From Thermomicrobiales bacterium (GTDB lineage Bacteria; Chloroflexota; Chloroflexia; Thermomicrobiales; UBA6265): 64,000 nt of DNA. The notes beneath the pieces were generated by a model. That model was given only the letters and a program-made list of their open reading frames with translations. It searched no databases and was not told the origin of the DNA. The position numbers were made by a program, and so were the translations under genes. Position 1 is the first letter of the stretch, and the number at the start of each line of letters is the position of its first letter. The DNA lies in NCBI GenBank assembly GCA_023957015.1, contig JAMLHR010000005.1:1-64000 (forward strand). Reading direction: 5' to 3'. This document shows positions 48,109-62,589 of the stretch, piece after piece.

Positions 48109-48205
48109 GATTCCTCCTGAACCGAATGGTCTCATCATAACCGCGACCTTTTCGGCACTGTATCGTTCTGTGTATCCATAGACGATATCCGCAAGCGAGG
48201 AGCCG

Positions 48206-48793
48206 GTGCACGAACCGTTGGAGAACTCACCACCCCAAGACACATCACGCGTCATGGACCTGCTGGAAGAGGTCTTTCGTAACCATCGCCAGGATCTGTT
48301 CTCGTTCTGCTATCGACGGCTGGGATCAGCGGACGCGGCCAATGACGCCTGCGGTCGAATCGTGCTCAAGGCGGTCAACAGCATCGATTCGTTCACACCC
48401 CACCCGGATCGGCCAGGCGAGACCATGCGCGCCTGGCTCTTCCGTATCGCCCGCAACGATCTCATCGACCATCGCCGCACACTCCGACCCGTCGCCTCGC
48501 TTGATCGCCTAAGTCAGGACGGGACATTGCTTCACAACCCGATCGATTCCCGTCGCGGACCAGAGGAGACGGCGTTGGCCAGGGAGTCCGAGCACGAGCT
48601 CCAACATCTCCTGCAACAGCTTCCGGATTCGCAGCGATCGATTGTCGAACTGCGGCTGGCGGGATTGCGTGGTGACGAGATCGCCGAAGCCCTTGGTCTC
48701 CCGCTTAGCGCCGTGAAATCGGCTCAATACCGCGCCTATCAGCGACTTCGCGATCTGCTCTCGCCCGACCACAGCACTGCGAGGAAACCATGA
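48206..48793 (+). CDS. ECF RNA polymerase sigma factor
   Basis: GTG 48206 follows GAGGAG. The 195-residue product has region 2 (LLEEVFRNHRQDLFSFCYRR to WLFRIARNDLIDHRR) and region 4 (LLQQLPDSQRSIVELRLAGL to SAVKSAQYRAYQRLRDLL). The adjoining anti-sigma gene overlaps by 4 bp. It should direct a stress or envelope response released by that partner. Confidence 0.93.
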   Translation: MHEPLENSPPQDTSRVMDLLEEVFRNHRQDLFSFCYRRLGSADAANDACGRIVLKAVNSIDSFTPHPDRPGETMRAWLFRIARNDLIDHRRTLRPVASLDRLSQDGTLLHNPIDSRRGPEETALARESEHELQHLLQQLPDSQRSIVELRLAGLRGDEIAEALGLPLSAVKSAQYRAYQRLRDLLSPDHSTARKP

Positions 48794-51700
48794 CCCAGCT
48801 CCCCTTCCCCACCAACCACGATGCCGATGACCTCAACGACTGGCTGGATGCACTGGTAACCGGTGACCAGGCGCCGCCGAGCAACGAGGTCCAGGCCGCT
48901 GCTGTGCGCGTGCATGCGCTGGCGGCAACATCCCCGACGGTTTCAACGCAACAGGAAGGACCACCTATGACTGCCACCGCTCTCTCACTGCCGCACGGGC
49001 GGCAAGCATACCGCAGACCGGAAAGAAACTGGTCAACCTGGATCAGTGCGGTGTTGGTCGCGGCCATCCTGGTCTCACTGGTCAACTGGTTCCGCTTGCC
49101 ACCAGCGAATCAGGATCGACCCAACATCGCCCATGCACCTGCCGGGCTGATCTCCGCCAATCTCAATCCCCTGAATTCCAACACCGCACCCTGGATCGCG
49201 GACTTCGATTCGGCGGATTGCACCGAGACATCCGATATCTCTGAGGTCCTCGTCGACTATAGTGCGATACCGATAGAAGACCCTCAGAGCTACGAGATTA
49301 TCGGTGACGCTGAGCATGACGATGCCGAAGCCGCCGCCGAGCAATATCGGGCGATGCGTGGTTGTGCCTACATGAAATCTGCCTGGGCGTATTGGACGGA
49401 AGCACGTATCAATCAACATCCACGTGTGTTGGACGAGACCAGCAGCATTGAGCTTGCCGAACTCCAGTCGTATTTTGCGGACCGCTATCCAGAGCAGTTC
49501 ATGGCCGTCGGAGACGATCTCCACGTCAGTCTCAAGATATGGTCGGAATGGACAACTCGGGCAGACCACAACTTCATCGGCCAGCCGATTCCATTAGCCG
49601 CCAAACTCAATCCTGACTGGGCGGTAACCCTGGCGGATGGGCGTATCGCCTTCCCGGCCACGGTGATGTACTCATCCGCCGATCCGGCCATCTACCTTGG
49701 CGGACTTCCGGTTGATGACCCGGTGAGTACCGTGGTGATCGTGTTCGCCAACGTCGATGGCACCTGGAAATACGACGATAGTCTGGCACTGTGTCTGGCT
49801 AACTGCGCCGGTGGTGTGGGGAATCCAATAGATCCCGAGATCGAAACGTGGGTACAACCCAGTGACCAACAGGAGTGCACAGCGCAACCGCTCATTGCCG
49901 ATCTGAATTACGACCTCAGCGATGGATTCCCGGACTATAGCGACCGAGAGTATCAGGTGGCCGATACGTCACCGTCATCGACGGCCCAGGTCGTCGCACA
50001 GACAGCCAACAATTGGTACGGTTGCTCATTCAGTAACGCAGGTTCACCCGAGTCAGTAAGTTATCTCACTCCCCTGGGTAGGACAAATGTCGTGCTGATC
50101 GAACAGGGCGGTTACGGCGATCCGTTCGAGATTGCACCTTACCTACGCCAACGGGAAATGGAGACCTCAAAACTCCTCAGTGTCACCCCCAACTGGACCC
50201 AGATCGCTGTGGTTGATATGCCACTTGCGTATGCGCAGTTCGGGATGATCTGGACACCTGGGTTCTCTGGCACTGCCGAGAATTCTGCCCGGGTCACTAC
50301 CCAGGAAGGTGCGTTCAATCCGGGTGCGACGGTGACACTCAGCGATGGTCGCGTAGCTATCGGTCACACTTCACTGATCTCCATCAATGATCGCGGAGCT
50401 ATCACCTACGAGGGAAATGCTATGGCCAATCCCCAGTTCGGGCTGATTCTGCAGCAGCATGGCGATCTGTGGTTGGTGGACGAGATTCTCGTGTCCCAGA
50501 ATGGCGCGCTTGCGTTCACCCAATCCGACGGATGGTGGTGGCAGGACACATTCGATCCGCCAAGTGCGAGTGAGCAGATCGCGTTGGCTCCAGACGAGGT
50601 TGCCTCAACAACCCCATCGCCACTCGATCCATCGTCAGCTCCCTGGATCGCGGACTTCTCACCTCAGGATTGCACGGCCGAGCACCAATCTCAGATTGAG
50701 ATCTCAAGCCGCGTCAACAACGCGGAATTCGGAGAGCAATCCTATGGCATTGTTGGGCCAGCGACCCCGGCCGACGCGACTCTGGTCGGCGATGCTTACC
50801 GCGCCATGCGTGGTTGCGACGACGGCAACACCGCCGCCAGCTACTGGAGCGATGCTCGGGTTGGTGGAGTGCCTCGCAACCTGACAGAGACAAATCTGGC
50901 TGAACTGGCGGACCTTCAGGCTTACTTCGAGAGCGTCTATCCCGATCAGTTCATGACCACGGCGGTTGATGTGGTGGTATCGAACGAGATTCAGGCTGAG
51001 TGGGATGCCCGCGCCAAGTTCAACGAGCTGGGTGCGCCGATTCCACTGAGCGTAAAGATCAATCCGTAGTGGGGAGTGGAGCTTGGCGATGGTCGTATCG
51101 CCTTCCCGGCCACGGTGATCTACGCCGCCAACGATCCGGCGATAGTGGCGAACGGTCTGCCAGTCGATTCGCCGGCAAGCACCGTCGCGATGGTGTTCAC
51201 CTACGAGCGCGATGGCTGGAAGTACGACGACAGTTTGCCACTCTGCCTGGCCAACTGCGAGAACGGCATCGGCAATCCGCTCGATCCCACGGTGGAGACC
51301 TGGTCGGTACCACCGACGATTGCGGAATGCACGACCAACGCAATGGACACAGAGACGCTCCGGGAGCGCATGAATACCGGTAGTGACTGGACCGCGAACT
51401 CTATCACGATACAGGGACCGGCCACCGAGTCCGATGCGGAAGCGGCGCTCGCCACCTATCGCATTGCCGATGCCTGCCAACGGTACGGCCTTACCTCTGA
51501 GAGTCTGGAACTCTACTCCGATCAGAGTCTCCAATATGTAAGTCCCATCACCCGTGGCCCGAGTCCGGAGTTGGAAAAGGACGAGGAGAACCTGGCACTG
51601 GCAAAGCAACAGCATGACCTGCTACGCATGGAAATCGCAGCCGCTGAGCCACGGATCTCCACTATGGCGGTTTCGCAATCGTTCGTCGGTAGATACGACA

Positions 51701-52050
51701 TCCCGGGAACGCAGTCAGTCTCCAGCACACTTGGCAACAATGACGACAGTACTGCCTCTCTCTATGACGGTATGGCGACCAGTCAGGGAGCCTGGATGTT
51801 GGAAGACGGACGGATCGTTCTGCCCATGGTGAAGGTGTTCGATATGAACGACCGCAATGCGATTCGCTACGGGGGTTCGCTCCATGACCGTGGCTCAGCA
51901 GCTATCCTCCGCAATGTCGATGGGGAGTGGAAGATCGATTACCACACGAACGCGCTTACGTCGTTCGGGTTCTCGATCACGCCATCGACCGATGCCTGGT
52001 GGTGGGCGGAGGAATGGGTCATACCACCATTCGCGACACCGAAACCGTAA
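48790..52050 (+). pseudogene. Anti-sigma factor with long repeat-bearing outer domain, interrupted by one TAG
   Basis: The ATG overlaps the sigma stop. A cytoplasmic segment (1-80) and one membrane helix (about 83-100) precede about 980 outer residues. These form two copies of an A-B pair: A starts near APWIADF and ends near CLANC...GNP (about 133-355 and 615-840); B ends with a WWW motif (about 355-600 and 840-1085). Codon 760 (51067-51069) is TAG, and the frame goes straight on to TGA at 52050 with the same repeats. The two A copies read KLNPDWAV and KINP-stop-WGV, so the stop replaces an acidic residue. The repeats resemble NTF2-like domains, but this is unproven. Confidence 0.8.
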
Positions 52051-52059
52051 CACCACACG

Positions 52060-52091
52060 ACGAAGCCCCCGGGTTTGACCTGGGGCTTCGT
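52060..52091. terminator. Bidirectional terminator
   Basis: ACGAAGCCCC and GGGGCTTCGT arms with a 12-base loop, between the sensor gene and the convergent citrate synthase gene. Confidence 0.8.
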
Positions 52092-52117
52092 TCGGACACT
52101 CGTTCCGGAACTAAACT

Positions 52118-53263
52118 CTATCGCTCGTCAATCGCCACGAACTTCTTGTCCGGCACCGGACCAACGTAGTGACTGGCCGGGCGGATGAGCCGGTTGATCT
52201 GCACCTGCTCCAACACGTGCGCGCTCCAGCCGACGCTACGGCTGACGGCAAATGCCACCGGGAAGAAATCACCCGGAAGACCAACGGCACCAAGCACCGC
52301 GGCGCTGTAGAACTCCACGTTGGTGTAGAGCTTACGACCCGGCTTGTGCTCGTTAAGCAAGCGCAATGCCTTCTCCTCGGTCTCCTTGCTCAGCATGAAG
52401 AACTCGGGTGTGCTCGCCTGCTGCGCCATACCACGCAGCACCTCCGCCCGCGGATCCTCCGCCTTGTAAACGCGATGACCAAAGCCCATCAGACGCTCAC
52501 CACGACTCAGCGCACCTTCCAGCCATGGTTCGACATTCTCCAGCGAGCCGATCTCGTTGAGCATGTCCATTACCTTGGCCGGGGCACCACCGTGGGCAGG
52601 TCCCTTCAGGGCGCCAATGGCACCCACGAGACAACTGCAAATATCGGAGTTGGTGCTGGCGATCACCCGAGCGGTGAAGGTGGAGGCATTGAGACCGTGA
52701 TCGGCCAACAACACCAGGTAACCATCCAGACCCTTCCACTCACCTTCCGATGGCTCCTCACCATGCATCATGTAGAGGAAGTTCTGGGCAGTATTGAGAT
52801 CGGCACGACCCTGCACCGGCTCCAGCCCCTGTCGCAGCCGATAGAACGCCGCTGCGATCGCCGGGAAGCGCGCGGCAAGCTCAACCGCTTCCTCGAAAGT
52901 GGGCGTCCCCTCGAAGTGCGTACCGCTCTGGGCACCCAGCAACGAGACACCGGTACGGAGCGCGTCCATCGGATTCGCGTCTTTACTGACCTGACGCAAA
53001 CCTTCAATCACTGCCTGCGGCAGCTCACGGTTCGCACCCAGCAGCGCATTCAGTTCGTCGAGTTCCTGCCGATTCGGGAGCTTGCCCTTCCACAGCAGGT
53101 AGGCAACTTCCTCAAACGAGGCGTGCCCCGCCAACTCGTAGATGTCATAACCGCAATACACCAGTTTGCCATCGGAACCAAAGACATGGCTCAACTCGGT
53201 ATTGGCCGCAATAACGCTATCTAGCCCATTAACCATGATGCCAGTACTCGAAAAATCGGACAT
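52118..53263 (-). CDS. gltA: Citrate synthase family enzyme
   Basis: ATG 53263 follows GGAGGAG. The 381-residue product is of type I/short-form size. The catalytic His residues are in LADHGLNASTF and MGFGHRVYKAEDPR, and substrate loops in GPAHGGAP. Where most members have Asp in NVDFYS, this has NVEFYSAAVL. It condenses oxaloacetate and acetyl-CoA; 2-methylcitrate synthase is a close alternative. Confidence 0.93.
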   Translation of the reverse strand: MSDFSSTGIMVNGLDSVIAANTELSHVFGSDGKLVYCGYDIYELAGHASFEEVAYLLWKGKLPNRQELDELNALLGANRELPQAVIEGLRQVSKDANPMDALRTGVSLLGAQSGTHFEGTPTFEEAVELAARFPAIAAAFYRLRQGLEPVQGRADLNTAQNFLYMMHGEEPSEGEWKGLDGYLVLLADHGLNASTFTARVIASTNSDICSCLVGAIGALKGPAHGGAPAKVMDMLNEIGSLENVEPWLEGALSRGERLMGFGHRVYKAEDPRAEVLRGMAQQASTPEFFMLSKETEEKALRLLNEHKPGRKLYTNVEFYSAAVLGAVGLPGDFFPVAFAVSRSVGWSAHVLEQVQINRLIRPASHYVGPVPDKKFVAIDER

Positions 53264-53453
53264 CCGCGAGTCTCCTCCGGTTCTGCCAACCGTATGTTGT
53301 GGGATACCCGGTGTTCACCCGTCTATGGGGTCACCATCGTCCAGAATGATCGTTCACAAGTTCATGCTATCACTAAAATGGGAGGTCAGTCCCGGTAAAT
53401 ACCGACAGCGTTGCGCAATTGACACGTCGTATGCATTCGACATTACGCAGAGA

Positions 53454-54107
53454 TCACGGCTGCAGTTGCCAGGAGCGGATATGCTCCCAGGTCAGGTCAT
53501 GCCACCACTCGGCATTCCAGTCGGCGCTGTGAAATCGGAACAACGTCACCCACTCCGCCATGAACTCGGTGGCATATGGCATGGGGATGGCGCGGAGGAA
53601 CTGATCGACCTCGGCCCTGAGATCCTTGCGTCTCCGCAGATCGTGGGAGGCCAGGGAGAAATGGGCGTGAAATGTCTCGGGATCAAGTGGCTTGGTCCAG
53701 TCATCTGGCTGGTAATCCGTGATCGGTGCGATCGCTTCGGCGATATCAACTGCCAATTTCTGCAGCGGTAGATTCTTCTCGCCATCGGCCAGACGATCGA
53801 TGTCATAGACGATCGTCGACCCAACGAAGTCGATGCCAGCGTTGTAAACCGGAAACTGCCGCGCCACAGTCAGCAACGGATCAAGCACGCAAACGAAATC
53901 GTCCGCAGTTGCGTTGCTCGGCACCGCCCCGACCAATGTCGCATGCGGTGCGAACGCGGCCGCCGAGACGATACCGAACTGTCGCTTGCAGAGCTCGGTC
54001 AGATCGGCAATCGCCTTGCAGGTGACAGGATCGGGTCGAAGATAGACACCCCAGGTATATTCGGTCACAGGTATATCCTCTGGTAACTCACGATTCTCTG
54101 GGTGCAT
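53454..54107 (-). CDS. 2H phosphoesterase / 2'-5' RNA ligase-like protein
   Basis: The 217-residue product has the two H-x-T/S motifs: FAPHATLVGAV and FHAHFSLAS. These define 2H phosphoesterases that act on 2',3'-cyclic or 2'-phosphate bonds in RNA or nucleotides. The start at ATG 54107 is the best fit to the family, but its ribosome site is poor. No partner gene is obvious. Confidence 0.83.
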   Translation of the reverse strand: MHPENRELPEDIPVTEYTWGVYLRPDPVTCKAIADLTELCKRQFGIVSAAAFAPHATLVGAVPSNATADDFVCVLDPLLTVARQFPVYNAGIDFVGSTIVYDIDRLADGEKNLPLQKLAVDIAEAIAPITDYQPDDWTKPLDPETFHAHFSLASHDLRRRKDLRAEVDQFLRAIPMPYATEFMAEWVTLFRFHSADWNAEWWHDLTWEHIRSWQLQP

Positions 54108-54211
54108 CCTCAACCGAATCGAGGCTGCTGGCAAGGGCGGATTGTGAGGTCGGGCAGAGCCGGGTACCATCGCACTATGTATTGATGGACCCCGCTGATC
54201 AAGGCCGAACC

Positions 54212-55444
54212 ATGAACGAGGGACAGCAGCGCGCGCTGCAGGATTTTCATGACAATCAATGCCTGTGGCTGGCGCGACTGGCGACGGGTGAACCCCAACC
54301 GCAACTACCTCATCCACATCTCTTCGCCGAGCACGATACCCTGGCCATTCGCACTGGCGAGAGCGGCATCATCATGCTGCCCTACACCGCATCACCGGAT
54401 CACGCATCGCTCGATGCGTCGTTAAGCTGGGTACGTCAACATGCGGTCAATGATCTCCTGATCTGGAATATGCAACCCGATCACGCGCTCGATCTCGAAC
54501 TGCTCGCACGCGGTTTCCGGGTCGGATTCGAACCGTGGTGGATGACCCGCGATCTCGATGCACCCATTCCGGCACTTACCCACGATGTCACCCTGGTAAC
54601 AGACTCTGATATCGAGCAACTGCGCGCCAGCCAGATCCCGTACATCGTGCCCACCCAACTGGATTCCACTCGCGAGCTCGTGCGCCAGGCATCTAGCGGC
54701 GAGGTTGTCTGGTTGGTGGCCAGAGACGGCGATACCGTCAACGGCCAAGCAATCGTCAATCTCGATGGCGATCACGCTGGTCTGTTCAATGTCGGCGTGG
54801 ATGGTCGTCATCGACACCGCGGCGTTGGCAGTTCCCTAACCGCTGCCGCGATGCAGATGGCGCGTGATCGCGGTGCCCGCACCATGAACCTGAACAGCAC
54901 ACCGATGGGCGAGCATCTCTATCTCCGCGCTGGTTTCATCCGCATCGGCAATGGTATGACCTGGTCCGCTTCGGGTATGCGGGCGCGGTCAGCGGTCAAC
55001 CACCATGTCCATGATCTCGCCATCGCGATCGGTGATGGCGACGTCGCATCGGTGACACGGCGAAATGTGCGTCATCATCTCCCGAACGGGATGACGGCGC
55101 AGGAGCTCGCGGCACGGTTTGGGCAGAGGGATATGTTGTTGCATCTCGTCTCCCTGGGACAAGTACCGGAGATCATTAGCTTGTGGGAGGTCGGACTCCG
55201 CGACGAAGCAGTGGCAGCGACCAGTGATCCGCGAGCGCGGGAGTTGACCAGCGGTCCCAGACAAGCCAGACCACTGCATCTCGCGGTCGAGCGCGGTGCG
55301 GGGACGCTTGTCCTGGCGCTGATCCACGCCGGTGCCGATGTCAACGCCCGCGATAGCGAGTTCCGCGCCACACCACTGGATTGGGCACACGCCTGCGATA
55401 AACCCACCATCGCCCGCATCATCCGCCAGGCGGGTGGCGAATAG
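54212..55444 (+). CDS. GNAT acetyltransferase fused to ankyrin-type repeats
   Basis: ATG 54212 follows AAGG. The 410-residue product has an N-terminal unknown part, a GNAT fold around residues 125-265 with the acetyl-CoA loop VDGRHRHRGVGSSLTAAAM and YLRAGFIRIG, and then ankyrin-like repeats at the end (GPRQARPLHLAVERGAGTLV, GADVNARDSEFRATPLDWAH). Repeats may hold a protein substrate. It is unlike a typical small GNAT. Confidence 0.83.
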   Translation: MNEGQQRALQDFHDNQCLWLARLATGEPQPQLPHPHLFAEHDTLAIRTGESGIIMLPYTASPDHASLDASLSWVRQHAVNDLLIWNMQPDHALDLELLARGFRVGFEPWWMTRDLDAPIPALTHDVTLVTDSDIEQLRASQIPYIVPTQLDSTRELVRQASSGEVVWLVARDGDTVNGQAIVNLDGDHAGLFNVGVDGRHRHRGVGSSLTAAAMQMARDRGARTMNLNSTPMGEHLYLRAGFIRIGNGMTWSASGMRARSAVNHHVHDLAIAIGDGDVASVTRRNVRHHLPNGMTAQELAARFGQRDMLLHLVSLGQVPEIISLWEVGLRDEAVAATSDPRARELTSGPRQARPLHLAVERGAGTLVLALIHAGADVNARDSEFRATPLDWAHACDKPTIARIIRQAGGE

Positions 55445-55513
55445 CATCCTCGCCAGGCGGTACAATCGTAGCCAGATATTCACCGGCCATCGGGCCCTCG
55501 TACAGGTTTCAGT

Positions 55514-56404
55514 ATGGACACGTTTGTTGTCATCCTCGTTCTCATTGTTTTGCTGGTATTGCTGGGCGGAACGGCATGGTTCTTCACTCGTGAAGCCGGA
55601 CCGGGTTCCGGTATGGCCTGGCTCACCGGCAATCGGCAGTTCCGTAGCGTCTTCCCCTCGGCCAATGCATCAATGCCGTTCTCGTCACGCACAAGCGCCA
55701 TCATGGTCGACGAATCGCATCTGCATCAGTTGGCAAGCGATCTGCGAGAGGAAATCGAGCGGGCCACCCAGCTCAATCTCGCTATGGAGGCACGCCTCTC
55801 GGCACTGGAGACCGATTTCGGGAGCACGAAACAGCTCCCCGCATTTGTCGATGCCCGCGTGCAATCGGCCGAGCAGGAGACACGGGATCGCATCGCGAAG
55901 ATTCGTCGCGATCTGAATGCCAGCCGCGTCTCCGATTCGCCCTATAGCGTGCGCCGCAACGATGCCGTCAGCGATCTCTATCAGAAACTGGCGCAGCTTG
56001 ATGTCGCCATCGGTGCGGTGGTCAATCCGATGCTGCTACCCGGCGAGCAGGTCTCCGTGCCGGAATCGCTCTACGATGACACATTGATCTGGGACAACTG
56101 GGGCGATGTCGCCGACCGCGCCTACGCCTTCGGCGAGTCGTTCAGCCAAAGCCGTTATCTGCTTGATCCGGAGTTGGCGCTACGGGTGGAGACATTCATC
56201 GCCACCTTCCGCACCAATCTCACCACCACCGTGTATCCGGTGGTGCAGGATGAACATCGGTCGTCACAACAACGGCAGCAGATGCGCATCGGTATCGTGA
56301 CGGTGGTCGATGAGATTCGACCGTTGCGTCGCGAGTTCGAGCAGACCTGGCTGAACGGTACCCACCTGGACGGCTTTACGGACGATGATGAGTCGGATGC
56401 CTAG
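55514..56404 (+). CDS. Membrane-anchored coiled-coil protein
   Basis: The 296-residue product has a single N-terminal helix (FVVILVLIVLLVLLGGTAWF), a Gly/Ser linker and a long charged helical region (about 68-140) likely to form a coiled coil (LASDLREEIERATQLNLAMEA). The rest is helical with no motif known. It overlaps the NamZ-type gene, so a link to the cell wall is plausible. Confidence 0.7.
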   Translation: MDTFVVILVLIVLLVLLGGTAWFFTREAGPGSGMAWLTGNRQFRSVFPSANASMPFSSRTSAIMVDESHLHQLASDLREEIERATQLNLAMEARLSALETDFGSTKQLPAFVDARVQSAEQETRDRIAKIRRDLNASRVSDSPYSVRRNDAVSDLYQKLAQLDVAIGAVVNPMLLPGEQVSVPESLYDDTLIWDNWGDVADRAYAFGESFSQSRYLLDPELALRVETFIATFRTNLTTTVYPVVQDEHRSSQQRQQMRIGIVTVVDEIRPLRREFEQTWLNGTHLDGFTDDDESDA

Positions 56405-57572
56405 CACCGTGCTGACAGGTCTGGATGTGCTGCTACGAGATAGACATCCACTCGCGCAGGATGGAGCCATCGGGCTCGTCACCAATCCCACCGCCGTCAC
56501 ACGCGATCTCGTCAGCGCCGTCGATGCGTTGCATCAGGATGATCGCTTCCATCTCGTTCGCCTCTTCGGACCCGAACACGGTGTTCGTGGTGACGCCCAG
56601 GCTGGCGATCACATCGGGAACGCGATCGATGTCACTACCGGACTGGAAGTGATCAGCATGTATGGCGATCACCTCACTCCCACGTTGGAGGATCTCGATG
56701 GAATCGAGGTGATGGTCTACGACCTTCAGGATGTCGGTGCGCGGCATTACACCTATCTGAGCACATTGGTGCACGTCATGCAGGCCTGTGCGGAGGCAGC
56801 GATCCCACTACTAGTGCTGGATCGACCGAATCCGATCACCTGTCTCCACACCGAAGGCAAGGTGCTGGATTCAGCCTACGAGTCCTTCGTCGGCATCCAC
56901 TCGATCCCCACCCGGCATGGACTGACCATCGGCGAGTTGGCACTGCTGATCGCCGCAGACCGTGATCTTCCAACTCCTACGGTTGTCCGCTGCCAGGGTT
57001 GGACGCGCGACCAATGGTGGGACGAAACGGACTTGCCCTTCGTCCTTCCCTCTCCAAATCTACCGACGCTCGATTCGGTGCTGGTCTATACGGCAACCTG
57101 CCTCCTGGAGGCAACGAATCTCTCGGAGGGTCGCGGCACGACCAAACCGTTCGAGATGATCGGCGCACCGTGGCTGAATGGCGCATCGCTGGCAACCGAA
57201 CTCAACGCACGACAGCTACGAGGTGTGACATTCCGGGGACTCACGTTCACACCATGGTTCTCCAAGCATCAGGGGGTACCCTGCGGTGGCGTGCAACTGC
57301 ATGTGACCGATCGCGAGGCGTTTCGACCGGTCTCGACCGGCATCCACCTGCTTCATGCGCTCTGCCACCTGCCGGATTCGCAGTTCCAGTGGCTGGAGGG
57401 TCCGGTATTCGGTATGAGCCATGCCCGCCTCTACGGGAGCACGGAACTCCAGATGATGCTGACCGACGGTGCGACCGTCGAGGAGATCATCGCCAGTTGG
57501 CAACCGGAGCTGGATCAGTTCGTCTCCCGCGCAAGCACATTCCATCTCTATCCCACCGGAGGCCAAAGGTGA
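56385..57572 (+). CDS. NamZ-type (DUF1343, GH171) exo-muramidase
   Basis: The start is either ATG 56385 or 56397; both overlap the previous gene. The 395-residue product has GLVTNPTAVTRD, RLFGPEHGVRGD, MVYDLQDVGARHYTYLST and LSEGRGTTKPFEMIGAPW, the full DUF1343 set. NamZ removes terminal MurNAc from peptidoglycan fragments for recycling. No clear signal peptide is seen, so the enzyme may act in the cytoplasm on imported muropeptides. Confidence 0.92.
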   Translation: MMSRMPSTVLTGLDVLLRDRHPLAQDGAIGLVTNPTAVTRDLVSAVDALHQDDRFHLVRLFGPEHGVRGDAQAGDHIGNAIDVTTGLEVISMYGDHLTPTLEDLDGIEVMVYDLQDVGARHYTYLSTLVHVMQACAEAAIPLLVLDRPNPITCLHTEGKVLDSAYESFVGIHSIPTRHGLTIGELALLIAADRDLPTPTVVRCQGWTRDQWWDETDLPFVLPSPNLPTLDSVLVYTATCLLEATNLSEGRGTTKPFEMIGAPWLNGASLATELNARQLRGVTFRGLTFTPWFSKHQGVPCGGVQLHVTDREAFRPVSTGIHLLHALCHLPDSQFQWLEGPVFGMSHARLYGSTELQMMLTDGATVEEIIASWQPELDQFVSRASTFHLYPTGGQR

Positions 57573-58117
57573 CGGTCAAACTCCCTCAATCCGATGAAGC
57601 CATCACGAACGCTACCGGTAAGGGCTGGGATGCCTGGAAGGCGATCCTGGACGAATGGAATGCACCGGCAAAATCCCACACCGAGATCGCACGGTATCTG
57701 TCCGATACGCACGGCGTGCCGGATTGGTGGGCACAGGGTGTTACCGTTGGTTACGAGCGGATGATCGGTCGACGCGAGGCTGGGCAGCGCAACGATGGCA
57801 GTTACTCAGCCAGCGCCAGCAAAACGATCGGGGTACCCATGTCCGCCGTTCACGCGGCGTTGGTGGACGATGCACAACGAGATCAGTGGTTGCCAGCCGG
57901 AAGCCTCTCGCTACGAACCCAGCAGGTGAAATCGGCCCGCTTCGATGAAGCGGAGACGGGTTTGATCGTGGCGTTCTTCCTCACCGCCAAGGTTGAGAAG
58001 ACGGCGGTGCAGGTACAGGTCGATGGTCTCGCCAGCGCGGATGATGCCGATGCCTGGAAGGCGGTCTGGAAGACGCGGTTGAGTGATCTGGCGACACACC
58101 TGGACAACATGTCGTGA
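57569..58117 (+). CDS. DUF4287 plus SRPBCC-like protein
   Basis: GTG 57569 overlaps the NamZ stop by 4 bp and follows GGAGG. The 182-residue product has an N-terminal DUF4287 block (GWDAWKAILDEWNAPAKSHT, then YLSDTHGVPDWWAQGVTVGY) and a C-terminal region that looks like a START/SRPBCC ligand fold (SASASKTIGVPMSAVHAALV). Role unknown. Confidence 0.8.
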   Translation: MTVKLPQSDEAITNATGKGWDAWKAILDEWNAPAKSHTEIARYLSDTHGVPDWWAQGVTVGYERMIGRREAGQRNDGSYSASASKTIGVPMSAVHAALVDDAQRDQWLPAGSLSLRTQQVKSARFDEAETGLIVAFFLTAKVEKTAVQVQVDGLASADDADAWKAVWKTRLSDLATHLDNMS

Positions 58118-58120
58118 TGC

Positions 58121-58193
58121 AATGAGGCCCTGAGCTATCTGGGAGCTTGTCCAGAACGCCACCTCCAGGCAGCTATTCGCGCAGGGCCTCATT
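58121..58193. ncRNA. Candidate structured RNA or extended terminator
   Basis: A 12-bp outer stem, AATGAGGCCCTG with CAGGGCCTCATT, encloses 49 bases. These can fold an inner hairpin TCTGG-GAGCTTGT-CCAGA and a second arm near CCTCCAGG, giving a three-way junction. It starts 4 bp after the DUF4287 stop. Neither strand matches a class I know. Confidence 0.4.
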
Positions 58194-58477
58194 GGTATTA
58201 GGAGCTAGAGCTCGGACCGATCAATGCCCGCAGGCATTCGTGAGTTATCCGGGCATATGTTGACACCACGAAACCTCGGCACCTGCCCTCTCGACTCATG
58301 ATCGCGCCAATCATTCCCGGGAGATGAAACCGCGCTCCGCCGAAACCGTGAGCCCGGACAACTCACGGTCGCGCAACTCTCCACGACGATCATCCTCTGC
58401 ATCGCGACCGCTCGGTCCAGGTTTACCTCATGCACGAGAAGACCTGATCACGGGTCTGAGGCGGTACTATCATCACA
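58194..58477. repeat. Inverted repeat pair in a gene-free stretch
   Basis: CGTGAGTTATCCGGGC (58239-58254) and, inverted, GCCCGGACAACTCACG (58352-58367) match at 15 of 16 positions, 97 bp apart. This would suit the ends of a small non-autonomous element of 129 bp or a large hairpin. No gene is seen in the stretch. Confidence 0.4.
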
Positions 58478-60247
58478 CTACGAACCAGGTGTGCTGGTGG
58501 GAGCCACAGACTGATCGACCGGTTCAATTGGCGGCAACCGCGTATCCCCGGTGCTGGCTGTATTGGCCGGTGTGGGAACCGGATTCGTCCCGATTGGCTC
58601 AAGGGGAGGGGGTTGCGTCGCACCACTTTCCTCCCAGAACGCGTCACAGTCTCCCAGGCAAACCTCCGCCTCGGTATCCAGACGCCATTGACCATCCACC
58701 TCTTGCCAGACCAGCACGCGGGTGACAACCTGCGCCGTCCGCCGCGTTTGCGGTGCATTGTCCTCAAAGGTGGTGACTTCCGATTGCAGAATGGCAACAC
58801 GACCATCGCTCAACACAACAGCATTATCCGGATCAAAGGCAGCGTAGGTGTCGATCGGAATATCCATCCCGGGAAAGAACGCCAACGGTACATTTGACCG
58901 CACGTTGTCCTTGTTGGCCCCCTGCTCCTCGAGTTCAATCGAGAGTTGTCTTGCCTGATCGAGATCGGCAACAGCGAACGTATCAGTCTTTAGCGCGAAG
59001 TCTTCACCACTTTGCTGGCAAGCATCGTACTGGCGGCTACCAATCGCGACGATCGTCGCTGGTTCCCAACCGGAGAGTACACCGTAGTTACCGACGCATT
59101 CCTCGGATGAGATCGGACGATGCCAGACCGAGACATGTGTGGTGGCTGCAAGGTACGTGAAGAAGTCATCGCACTCGCCTATGCATAGATAGAGCACATC
59201 ATCCAGCTTCCACACGCCATCCTCTTCGGCCATCACATAGAGGAGGCCTCGCCCGGTTGAGGTCGAGCGAGTCCCCGAATCGGCATCCGGATTCACGGTC
59301 GCTATCACGACCGGCACAGCAATCCGTCCGTCGGAGGTCTGCATCGCGAACTCGGCCAGCGATAGGCGGTAGTCTCCTGGTGTTACCAGTGCCGATTCCG
59401 GATTCCCCTTACCAATGACGACCACCATATCTGAAGCGGTGATATCGGACTTAGCGGCAAACTCATCCGACACCTCCATACTGACTGCAAGTGTCTGCTC
59501 GATCTGCAGCGGCAGTAACGGATTGAAACCCTGACCCTGCATCGTGGTGCTAACGGCTGCGTAAGACGACGTCATGAAATTCAAGGGATCGGCGACATCA
59601 GCGCAACTATCGACCTGCCGCGCGGCCATGGCGGCTGCCTCGGCATCACCCCTCGCCGGTGTCTCAAGTGAGTCATAGCTACGGGCAGTGATTCGCGTTT
59701 GGCTCGATGGCCGCGTTCCCGTCGATGAATCACCAACGGGTGGATATTGACATTCCTCTGCGGTTACCGGCTTGAGCAATGTGACCGCGGCCTCCGGCGA
59801 CGCTATCGGACTCGAGTCAGATGCCGGAGAGGTCACAATCTCGGATACCGGGCGAACATTGGTCTCTCGCACCCACCCCTCTTTACCGTCTATTGTCCGG
59901 ATGAACAGCCAACCCTGGTCCTCACTAAGGTCATCCCCTTCCGGATCGGACGTGAGTTCGCGTTGACAGAGGTATTGCAACATCTGACCATCCTGGAGCA
60001 CCGCCACCGGATCACCACTCGCGATACCAGGACCAGGACGAAGATTGACGGCCCTCCCTGCGATTACCTCGTAGTCCGCACTGAAATCCTCAGAAACAGT
60101 GCAGGCTTCGCCGCTGGAAGTCTGCATCTTCACATACGTGGCCCAACCAGGTTGCTGCTGCCAGAACGGAGCACACTCCTCCTCGGTCCCGATACAAACA
60201 GGCAGGTATTCATCAATCTGCCACTCGCCGTCGTTCTCGATCAGCAC
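58478..60247 (-). pseudogene. C-terminal part of a broken anti-sigma sensor (SH3 and repeat modules)
   Basis: The 589-residue frame has no ribosome site or leader and starts mid-domain, reading NDGEWQIDEYLPVCIGTEEE. It contains a bacterial SH3-like domain (about 40-130: GRAVNLRPGPGIASGDPVAV to TIDGKEGWVRETNV), then two repeat modules ending EEDGVWKLDDVLYLCIGEC and EVDGQWRLDTEAEVCLGDC. The endings match the modules in the anti-sigma at 60782 and in the distant sensor at 48790. I read it as the tail of the gene that starts at 61936. A free-standing protein is less likely. Confidence 0.7.
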
Positions 60248-60271
60248 CCCGCCAAACCACCGGCTTCGACG

Positions 60272-60806
60272 TATCCGGCGTCACCAGCGGCATCTCGCCG
60301 TCAGAAACCATCCATCGCTGTGACCAACACTATCTGACGACCATCCGCCGTCTGCATGATCCAGTCCGGATTGATCACTGGATACGTCCGGATCAAGACC
60401 CTCGACTTCAGGATCGCCAACGTTGAAATGCAAAACCATTTGGTCAGATGTGACGCCGAGCTGGTTAAGGTAGAAGTCGGACACCTGCTGTCCATGCACG
60501 ATCTGATCCACCGACAGTGCTGGGCCTCAGCCGATACCGAGAAGACACGATCAGTTTCCTCGTACCACAACCGGTCCGACAGAAGGTCTCCCACGCCAAC
60601 CGCGTTCAAGCAGGCGCGCATATCACGGGCAGCGCTCCCAAACATCCGTGCGCTCGGCCGCATTCGCTAACTGCAGCGGCGCATGACACGAGCGGGGAAG
60701 TCTCCCGATACCAAAGTGAGACTTGCCGTTGGTGTACGATCTGATTCTCGGTGAGCGTGCATTCATACGGAGAGATCGGCATCACCCACTCCGGATTCCC
60801 GGAGAT
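60272..60806 (-). pseudogene. Decayed near-copy of the sensor module
   Basis: This region is a near-duplicate of 61026-61560, with the same order of blocks. The module resumes at NPEWVMPISPYECTLTENQI in one frame, and RDMACLNAVGV and DQIVHGQQVSDFYLNQLGVT lie in others. At least four single-base indels separate the copies, such as CATAGACAC to CATGACAC (about 60686) and GTGACG to GTACG. It links the anti-sigma frame to the frame at 60247. Confidence 0.75.
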
Positions 60807-61936
60807 GCCACCGCTGTGGGTGTTGCGACTGCCGTATCCACAACCGGCAGCGCCGTCGCCCACTCCTCCCATACCTCATCGCATTCACCGGCAAACGGCC
60901 AGGTCTCATCCAGCAACCACCCCCCGTCGGCCTCTATGAAGATCAAAACACCAGCACCAAAACCGGTGTGGTTGTCGGATTCCCACCATGCCATTAATAG
61001 ACCGTGCCCTGCCCCAGGCGGACTTTCCGGCGTCACCAGTGGCATCTCACCGTCGGAGACCACCATGGCTGTAACCAACACTATCTGACGACCATCCTCC
61101 GTCTGCAAGATCCAGTCCGGATTGATCACTGGATACGTACCCGGATCGAGACCCTCAACCTCAGGATCGCCAACCTTGAAATGCAAAAGCATTTGGTCAG
61201 ATGTGACGCCGAGTTGGTTAAGGTAGAAGTCGGACACCTGCTGTCCATGCACGATCTGATCCACCGACAATTGCTGGGCCTCAGCTGATACCGAGAAGAC
61301 ACGATCAGTTTCCTCGTATCGCAACCGGTCCGACCAGAAGGTCTCCACGCCAACTGCGTTCAAGCAGGCGCGCATATCACGGGCAGCGCTCCAAACATCC
61401 GTGCGCTCGGCCGCATTCGCTAACTGCAGCGGCGCATAGACACGAGCAGGGAAGTCCCCCGATACCAAAGTGAGACTTGCCGTTGGTGTGACGACCTGAT
61501 TCTCGGTGAGCGTGCATTCATACGGAGAGATCGGCATGAGCCATTCCGCGTTCGGAGAGAACATGACAACCGGAGTCGCCTGCACCGTCGGGATGGCGGA
61601 CGGGACACCCAGGAATCGGCCCTCATCGCCGCCACGCGGCAAACTCCAGTTGAACACACCGGTCATCGCCAGGAGTGCTGCAGCGGCAATCGCCAGCCAG
61701 GCGAATTTCCCTGATCGACGCTTCTCCAAACCCGGATAGGAAATACCACGTGAGATAACGGTCGGTTTGTCGAGTTCCAATGCAGTTGCGATCTGTAGCC
61801 TGTGATGTGTAGGCATACTCACGTCTCGCTCCTTCCGATAAACACCAGCGACAAATCGAGTCAGATCGTCTTGTTGTTCTGGCTGGTGGCCAGCGACCAG
61901 TGCGTCAAGCGCCTGGTCGAATGCGGAGTCATCCAT
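60782..61936 (-). CDS. Anti-sigma factor, truncated at the second module
   Basis: ATG 61936 overlaps the sigma stop by 8 bp. The 384-residue product has a cytoplasmic segment (1-75), one membrane helix (about 78-97) and an outer module (about 120-365) that starts EWLMPISPYECTLTENQ and ends EADGGWLLDETWPFAGECDE. The frame ends at PGIRSG exactly where a neighbouring frame continues with a second copy of the module. The full-length ancestor probably ran to 58478. The short form may still work as an anti-sigma. Confidence 0.8.
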   Translation of the reverse strand: MDDSAFDQALDALVAGHQPEQQDDLTRFVAGVYRKERDVSMPTHHRLQIATALELDKPTVISRGISYPGLEKRRSGKFAWLAIAAAALLAMTGVFNWSLPRGGDEGRFLGVPSAIPTVQATPVVMFSPNAEWLMPISPYECTLTENQVVTPTASLTLVSGDFPARVYAPLQLANAAERTDVWSAARDMRACLNAVGVETFWSDRLRYEETDRVFSVSAEAQQLSVDQIVHGQQVSDFYLNQLGVTSDQMLLHFKVGDPEVEGLDPGTYPVINPDWILQTEDGRQIVLVTAMVVSDGEMPLVTPESPPGAGHGLLMAWWESDNHTGFGAGVLIFIEADGGWLLDETWPFAGECDEVWEEWATALPVVDTAVATPTAVASPGIRSG

Positions 61937-62477
61937 GGTTCACCTCGGTCCTATGCGGAGCCATGAGTTCACGCAAGCGCACGAAGGCACGAGCCTGGGT
62001 GGCCTTGACTGCACCGTGAGTCATCCCCATCGCGTTCCCGATCTCCCTGCCCGTCAACCCCGCCAGCCGCAGACTCACAACCTCGCGCTGCTGATCGGTC
62101 AGCTGCTGTAAAGCGGCATACAGTGCGGAACCCGTTTCCCGTTGCAGTGCTGAAGCCTCGGGTCCCGGTGAAGCGGTCGCCACGTGATCGGCCAGTTCGA
62201 TCACCGGCCTGGTACTGCGATAGCGATCGATCACGGCATTGCGAGCGATGGCGAAGAGCCAACTACGGAACGAATCGCCGTGAAATCTGCCGATGCTGTT
62301 AAGCGCTCGCATGAAGATGTCGGAGGTGGTATCGGCAGCAACCTCAGGATCGCCGAGTCGGCGCAAGCAATAGCCGTAAACGGCATCGACGTAGCGCTCG
62401 TAGAGCGGTGCAAACGCGGTGCGATTACGCTGCGCGGCCCTAACCTCGTCTTGTTCCGTGGCTGCAACCTCTATCAC
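61929..62477 (-). CDS. ECF RNA polymerase sigma factor
   Basis: GTG 62477 follows GAGAGG. The 182-residue product has region 2 (FAPLYERYVDAVYGYCLRRL, then FRSWLFAIARNAVIDRYR) and region 4 (QQLTDQQREVVSLRLAGLTG, then THGAVKATQARAFVRLREL). It pairs with the overlapping anti-sigma gene. It is related to, but clearly different from, the sigma factor at 48206. Confidence 0.93.
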   Translation of the reverse strand: MIEVAATEQDEVRAAQRNRTAFAPLYERYVDAVYGYCLRRLGDPEVAADTTSDIFMRALNSIGRFHGDSFRSWLFAIARNAVIDRYRSTRPVIELADHVATASPGPEASALQRETGSALYAALQQLTDQQREVVSLRLAGLTGREIGNAMGMTHGAVKATQARAFVRLRELMAPHRTEVNHG

Positions 62478-62589
62478 ATTGCCTCTCGTTCCCGCTGGTG
62501 TACCAACCTTATCTATGGAGACGACGTATTCATGAAAAGGATACGGTCGCTATGATAGGAGTAGAGCGACGGTAATCCCGAGGTGGAAT

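Follow-up and report, generated by a model that had tools for sequence, protein, structure and literature searches.

The window, a 64,000-nucleotide stretch of a Thermomicrobiales MAG (2.84 Mb in 104 contigs, 91% complete), carries two genes for ECF sigma factors, each accompanied by a gene for a putative anti-sigma factor. Sigma factor 1 (195 aa, 48206..48793, forward strand) matches Sigma70_r2 (E 2e-11) and Sigma70_r4_2 (E 7e-12), and sigma factor 2 (182 aa, 61929..62477, reverse strand) matches Sigma70_r2 (E 3e-17). Both score above the cut-off of TIGR02937 and have Sigma70 domains for regions 2 and 4 without region 3, the arrangement that marks the ECF type. In each pair the anti-sigma gene lies directly downstream of the sigma gene and overlaps it; in relatives with both genes on the contig the two likewise overlap. 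The two anti-sigma proteins begin with a cytoplasmic part of 77–84 residues, followed by one transmembrane (TM) segment predicted from hydropathy and charge. The N-terminal side of this segment is positively charged in both proteins, which predicts that the N-terminus is inside; cysteines then number none inside and eight or three outside. The cytoplasmic part is poorly conserved, matches no anti-sigma model in Pfam or NCBIfam, and is predicted by AlphaFold to form helices, but at a pLDDT of about 40. The sigma domains, the overlapping gene order and the single predicted TM segment bear out the initial annotation, made from the sequence alone, which had proposed two ECF sigma/anti-sigma pairs.

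The outer part of anti-sigma 1 is built from two related domain types, A and B. The ORF (759 aa, 48790..51069, forward strand, as are all its modules) encodes the cytoplasmic part, the TM segment (residues 85–103), module A1 (49186..49806), module B1 (49843..50562) and part of module A2 (50638..51258). A profile of the module recovers A1 at E 2e-64 and B1 at E 5.8e-6, and these are 60% and 40% identical, respectively, to the A and B modules of a same-genus relative, Thermomicrobiales bacterium HKST-UBA75. Module A2 is 52% identical to A1 and is recovered at E 1.1e-43 with one TAG inside it. This in-frame TAG (51067..51069) ends the ORF and replaces the Asp of the NPDW or NPDY seen in A1 and HKST-UBA75, so that A2 reads NP-stop-W; a change from GAG to TAG would need one base. 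Past the TAG, the rest of A2 and all of module B2 (51295..52029, profile E 7.6e-9) run on in the same frame to 52050, and B2 is still open, with coding-like codon use. An A-B-A-B array over about 950 residues had been proposed here: the order of the two domain types is real, but the TAG leaves a 759-aa ORF that ends inside A2.

The array of pair 2, on the reverse strand throughout, is also disrupted. The anti-sigma 2 ORF (384 aa, 60782..61936) comprises the cytoplasmic part, the TM segment (residues 78–96) and one module, M1 (60881..61549, profile E 1e-70). It is followed by a decayed module, M2 (60173..60793), a frameshifted copy of the M1 segment: the stretches 60274–60793 and 61026–61548 are 93.5% identical over 526 bp, with nine gap positions, several frameshifts and four stops. 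The substitutions and gap positions are spread along the 526 bp, and the reading-frame signal is mixed. A downstream ORF (589 aa, 58478..60247) then holds the M2 tail, an SH3-like domain (59864..60052), module M3 (59171..59782, profile E 2.5e-66) and a short module M4 (58646..59125, profile E 3e-40). It has neither a TM segment nor a signal, and is probably a remnant. The SH3-like assignment rests on a weak match to SH3_3 (E 0.0015, below the Pfam cut-off), the sole Pfam domain found in the anti-sigma genes. The initial annotation had placed this domain in anti-sigma 2; it belongs instead to the separate ORF at 60247–58478, past four stops and the frameshifts, as does the motif EVDGQWRLDTEAEVCLGDC. 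The picture of two long intact receptors in this genome is therefore not supported, since both arrays are interrupted and anti-sigma 2 is a 384-aa protein with one module. In the source assembly, only A1-B1-partial A2 of pair 1 and M1 of pair 2 are still joined to a membrane anchor.

The modules share the pattern W-x-x-P-I-x-x-x-E-C ... R-x4-C ... L-x-DGRIA ... DG-x-W-x-x-D-E-x-x-x-x-C, and all the DG-W-x-D...C motifs quoted in the initial annotation are present. The repeats are not chance, because the module profile recovers every one of them at E values from 1e-70 to 6e-6; the modules of both pairs form one family. The module scores below the cut-off of every Pfam and NCBIfam model and therefore matches no anti-sigma sensor family described in either collection. 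Weak matches to DUF4440 (PF14534), an NTF2-like family, appear in three relatives (E 0.011–0.08, below the Pfam cut-off), and compared with DUF4440 the module, at about 207 residues, has an extra N-terminal segment and conserved cysteines. The connection to this family runs through compact relatives of the module (alignment A6), which either form the C-terminal end of CopC-CopD-cytochrome c fusions or occur within small ORFs. These align with the modules at an hhalign probability of 98.2 (E 6e-14) and with DUF4440 proteins of the same order at a probability of 90.5 and a score of 41, against a best score of 14.6 from 100 column shuffles with gap-rich columns removed. Direct comparison of modules and DUF4440 gives a score of 26.5 (best shuffle under the same control 15.9) and covers the C-terminal half only. 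Matches of A6 to PDB profiles are weak (E 0.2–1) and fall mostly on ketosteroid isomerases, plus SgcJ, both of which are NTF2-like. The same search with the modules returned a single kinetochore match, judged spurious. AlphaFold models of anti-sigma 2 and A1-B1 had mean pLDDT values of 39 and 33 and were unusable, having been made from alignments of only seven and four sequences. The sequence relation to DUF4440 is thus weak but consistent through the compact relatives; the compact form is likely to be NTF2-like and the modules are probably so, as the initial annotation had suspected, with profile similarity running through the intermediate and the direct similarity weak.

HKST-UBA75 was the sole match when a named genome collection was scanned with a two-row alignment of the module. 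In HKST-UBA75, a 10-kb stretch contains both pairs, intact and in unchanged order: the pair 1 anti-sigma (611 aa) has one A and one B, and the pair 2 anti-sigma (616 aa) has two modules. The sigma factors are 74% (sigma 1) and 73% (sigma 2) identical between the two genomes, compared with 42–44% for the cytoplasmic and TM parts of the anti-sigmas, 60% for A and 40% for B1, and by this measure sequence change in the sensor far outpaces that in the sigma factor. The module tree joins A1 with the HKST-UBA75 A module (inner fork 92/83) and places A2 as their sister (100/100); likewise, B2 branches beside the pair formed by B1 and the HKST-UBA75 B module (93/92). From this double pattern, A and B were most likely duplicated together in an ancestor shared with HKST-UBA75, and the second unit was later lost in HKST-UBA75. 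The three modules of G004, a genome of a second genus, cluster together (93/97), which points to a separate duplication. The M1 body of pair 2 is closer to HKST-UBA75 module 2 (46%) than to module 1 (27%), the M2 tail is 49% identical to module 2, and the M1 tail is nearly equidistant from the two (41% versus 35%). Because the M1 body and the M2 tail both resemble module 2 and the two copies are 93.5% identical, module 2 probably overwrote module 1 by non-allelic gene conversion or unequal exchange; the decay of module 2 would have come afterwards. Growth of the sensor by duplication, as first suggested, is thus upheld by the tree and by the pair 2 copies, and alongside duplication the tree supports module loss, truncation and copying from one module to another.

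How far the truncations are biological depends on the assembly. If the breaks were assembly or sequencing errors, the organism would make two long intact receptors, A-B-A-B and M1-M2-SH3-M3-M4. Such errors would fit a genome assembled from a metagenome into 104 contigs, a break of one codon in anti-sigma 1, and post-stop parts that retain coding-like codon use in one open frame. They would not readily account for the substitutions, nine gap positions and mixed frame signal along the M2 copy, and every other gene compared in the region is intact and colinear with HKST-UBA75. An in-frame TAG also interrupts the second module of another two-module anti-sigma, in G004 (C48, L047:701-2610; GTG TAG GAT TGG), at a position independent of that in the window. 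Given the intact, colinear surroundings and this second case, errors are an unlikely explanation and the breaks are probably real, with the caveat that the stops and frameshifts come from a single MAG. Reading the anti-sigma 1 TAG as a recoded codon was rejected, as TAG terminates about one third of the long ORFs in the window.

Five genomes, all from one family (G000, G002, G004, G009 and G013), have strong module matches (E < 1e-10). All eight strong anti-sigma carriers in the family adjoin an ECF sigma gene or its end, which supports the initial annotation; in one (G004:C20), only the sigma C-terminus is present on the contig. No strong match was found outside the family in 158 genomes of the class and an even draw of 300 other genomes of the phylum, searches in which distant relatives may have been missed because only 10–19 candidates per genome were scored. 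Marginal matches (E 6–7e-4) occur in two class genomes outside the family. One carrier in G009 (C653, L048:2-2998) encodes an anti-sigma, 999 aa or longer, in which two modules precede a further outer region, possibly beta-propeller-like; the contig continues beyond it. Weaker relatives of the module are found on CopC-CopD-cytochrome c fusions and small ORFs. The fusion (G000:C22:15.8-18.5 kb, L058:3801-6467; also L050, L053 and L054) combines a CopC-CopD-like membrane protein, a cytochrome c domain and, at its C-terminus, the compact NTF2-like domain; several genera of the family have orthologues. Two further places, G000:C37:749-2945 and G000:C93:943-3096 (L083, L087, L088 and L089), each have two tandem ECF sigma/anti-sigma pairs, and the outer domains there, which start with CxVEPLTxxE, look like one more divergent form of the module.

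The outer modules might serve mainly as a stalk or dimerisation spacer, in which case their number would matter little and they could be gained and lost freely. Relatives carry from one to three or more modules, the outer part diverges fast (40–60% identity versus 73–74% for the sigma factors), and the truncated forms retain the anchor and at least one module, all as expected of a spacer. Even so, modules that are only about 20% identical share the motif residues (C, R..C, DGR, W, D, C), suggesting selection on folded domains, and this type of domain is also found by itself or as part of unrelated proteins. A mainly structural role is therefore the less likely reading, and a sensory role is preferred.

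An ECF-type promoter-like site, ACCG-N3-CCTTTT-N10-TCGT, precedes sigma 1 (48140..48166, forward strand) and is kept in HKST-UBA75 with one mismatch; its counterpart precedes sigma 2 (62521..62547, reverse strand). Without mismatch, ACCG-N3-CYTTTT-N10-TCGT occurs in the 2.84 Mb only ahead of these two sigma genes, a uniqueness that is circular taken alone, as the pattern was derived from the same two sites. The pattern recurs at one or two mismatches ahead of the HKST-UBA75 orthologues, at two ahead of two other ECF genes of the source genome (C37 and C93), and at one and three ahead of the sigma genes of G004:C48 and G009, respectively. With the two defining sites discounted, a random 240-bp stretch reaches two mismatches in about 0.1% of cases. 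A genome search at two mismatches gave 29 hits versus 36 for the reversed control, and so points to no regulon.

These observations are best drawn together, with good but not full confidence, as two envelope-signal switches with a lineage-specific, fast-evolving, modular NTF2-like sensor, autoregulated through a shared site, whose arrays are copied, overwritten and truncated. The cytoplasmic part of the anti-sigma would hold the sigma factor, and the TM helix would connect it to outer modules stabilised by the conserved cysteines. An envelope signal acting on the modules would free the sigma factor, perhaps by regulated proteolysis ending with the site-2 protease encoded in the source genome (C37, E 4.5e-56); searches brought up no ligand, site-1 protease or regulon. 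The freed sigma factor would increase expression of its own operon through the shared promoter-like site, and distal modules would be lost through stops and frameshifts. With the anchor and one or more complete modules retained, both truncated anti-sigmas could remain functional. The arrays might instead be dead ends, with the pairs being lost in this lineage and the broken anti-sigmas misregulating or no longer responding. Both of the anti-sigma genes in the source genome are indeed broken, yet each pair retains an intact sigma gene, cytoplasmic part, TM helix, first module and promoter-like site, which makes such loss improbable. A bolder extension of the favoured switch is that sensor length is itself evolvable: tandem modules would be duplicated, converted by their neighbours and removed by stops with the sigma-binding anchor kept, and module number would differ among strains of one species, and with it signal range or threshold. 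It is speculative and, in our estimate, quite unlikely.

It is well established that membrane anti-sigma factors can carry outer sensors specific to their group, and Chloroflexi are described as rich in the membrane-bound class I anti-sigmas (ASDI) of ECF sigma factors (72% of ECFs; PMC7406223). The window anti-sigmas resemble ASDI proteins in a gene that follows the sigma gene and overlaps it, an N-terminal cytoplasmic part, a TM helix and variable C-terminal sensory domains; they differ in that they match none of the anti-sigma domain models, lack the Hx3Cx2C zinc motif and have an outer part composed of repeats of an unnamed module (PMC7406223). The RsgI family likewise comprises single-pass anti-sigmas with large outer sensor domains, and RsgI9 of Clostridium thermocellum carries one NTF2-like domain (PMC12203970). 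There, the partner is SigI rather than an ECF sigma factor, the periplasmic domain is self-cleaving, and no repeat array of the NTF2-like domain is described (PMC12203970); the window anti-sigmas have an ECF partner and no Pfam domain beyond the weak SH3_3. In ECF41 and ECF56, an NTF2-like domain is also involved in ECF control, but this SnoaL/NTF2-like domain is fused to the sigma factor instead of sitting on the outer part of the anti-sigma (PMC3426412, PMC7730460). The initial annotation regarded a modular surface sensor as new; the module matches no anti-sigma sensor family described in Pfam or NCBIfam, but anti-sigmas with modular outer sensors are known (PMC12203970). Within the open-licence literature, the present system stands out by arranging its sensor as a repeat array, by a lineage-specific module that bears cysteines, and by the way in which this module is duplicated, overwritten and truncated.

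The source genome has about 20 ECF sigma genes, several of them followed by single-TM proteins with other outer domains. Examples are a PQQ-type propeller (E 1.4e-13) after ECF sigma genes at G000:C66:3434 onward (L099), and an unidentified large outer domain after those at G000:C16:45547 onward (L084). The combination of an ECF sigma factor with a single-TM outer sensor is a general design in this organism, which uses the module as one of several outer domains. As the present case warns, internal stops should be looked for whenever a long tandem receptor is deduced from raw sequence. Most ECF anti-sigma sensors in Chloroflexota and Thermomicrobia are without a known signal; one module is now defined and searchable, common to neighbouring switches in one family and to CopC-CopD-cytochrome proteins, and the locus offers a rare snapshot of a receptor array in the course of copying, overwriting and truncation.
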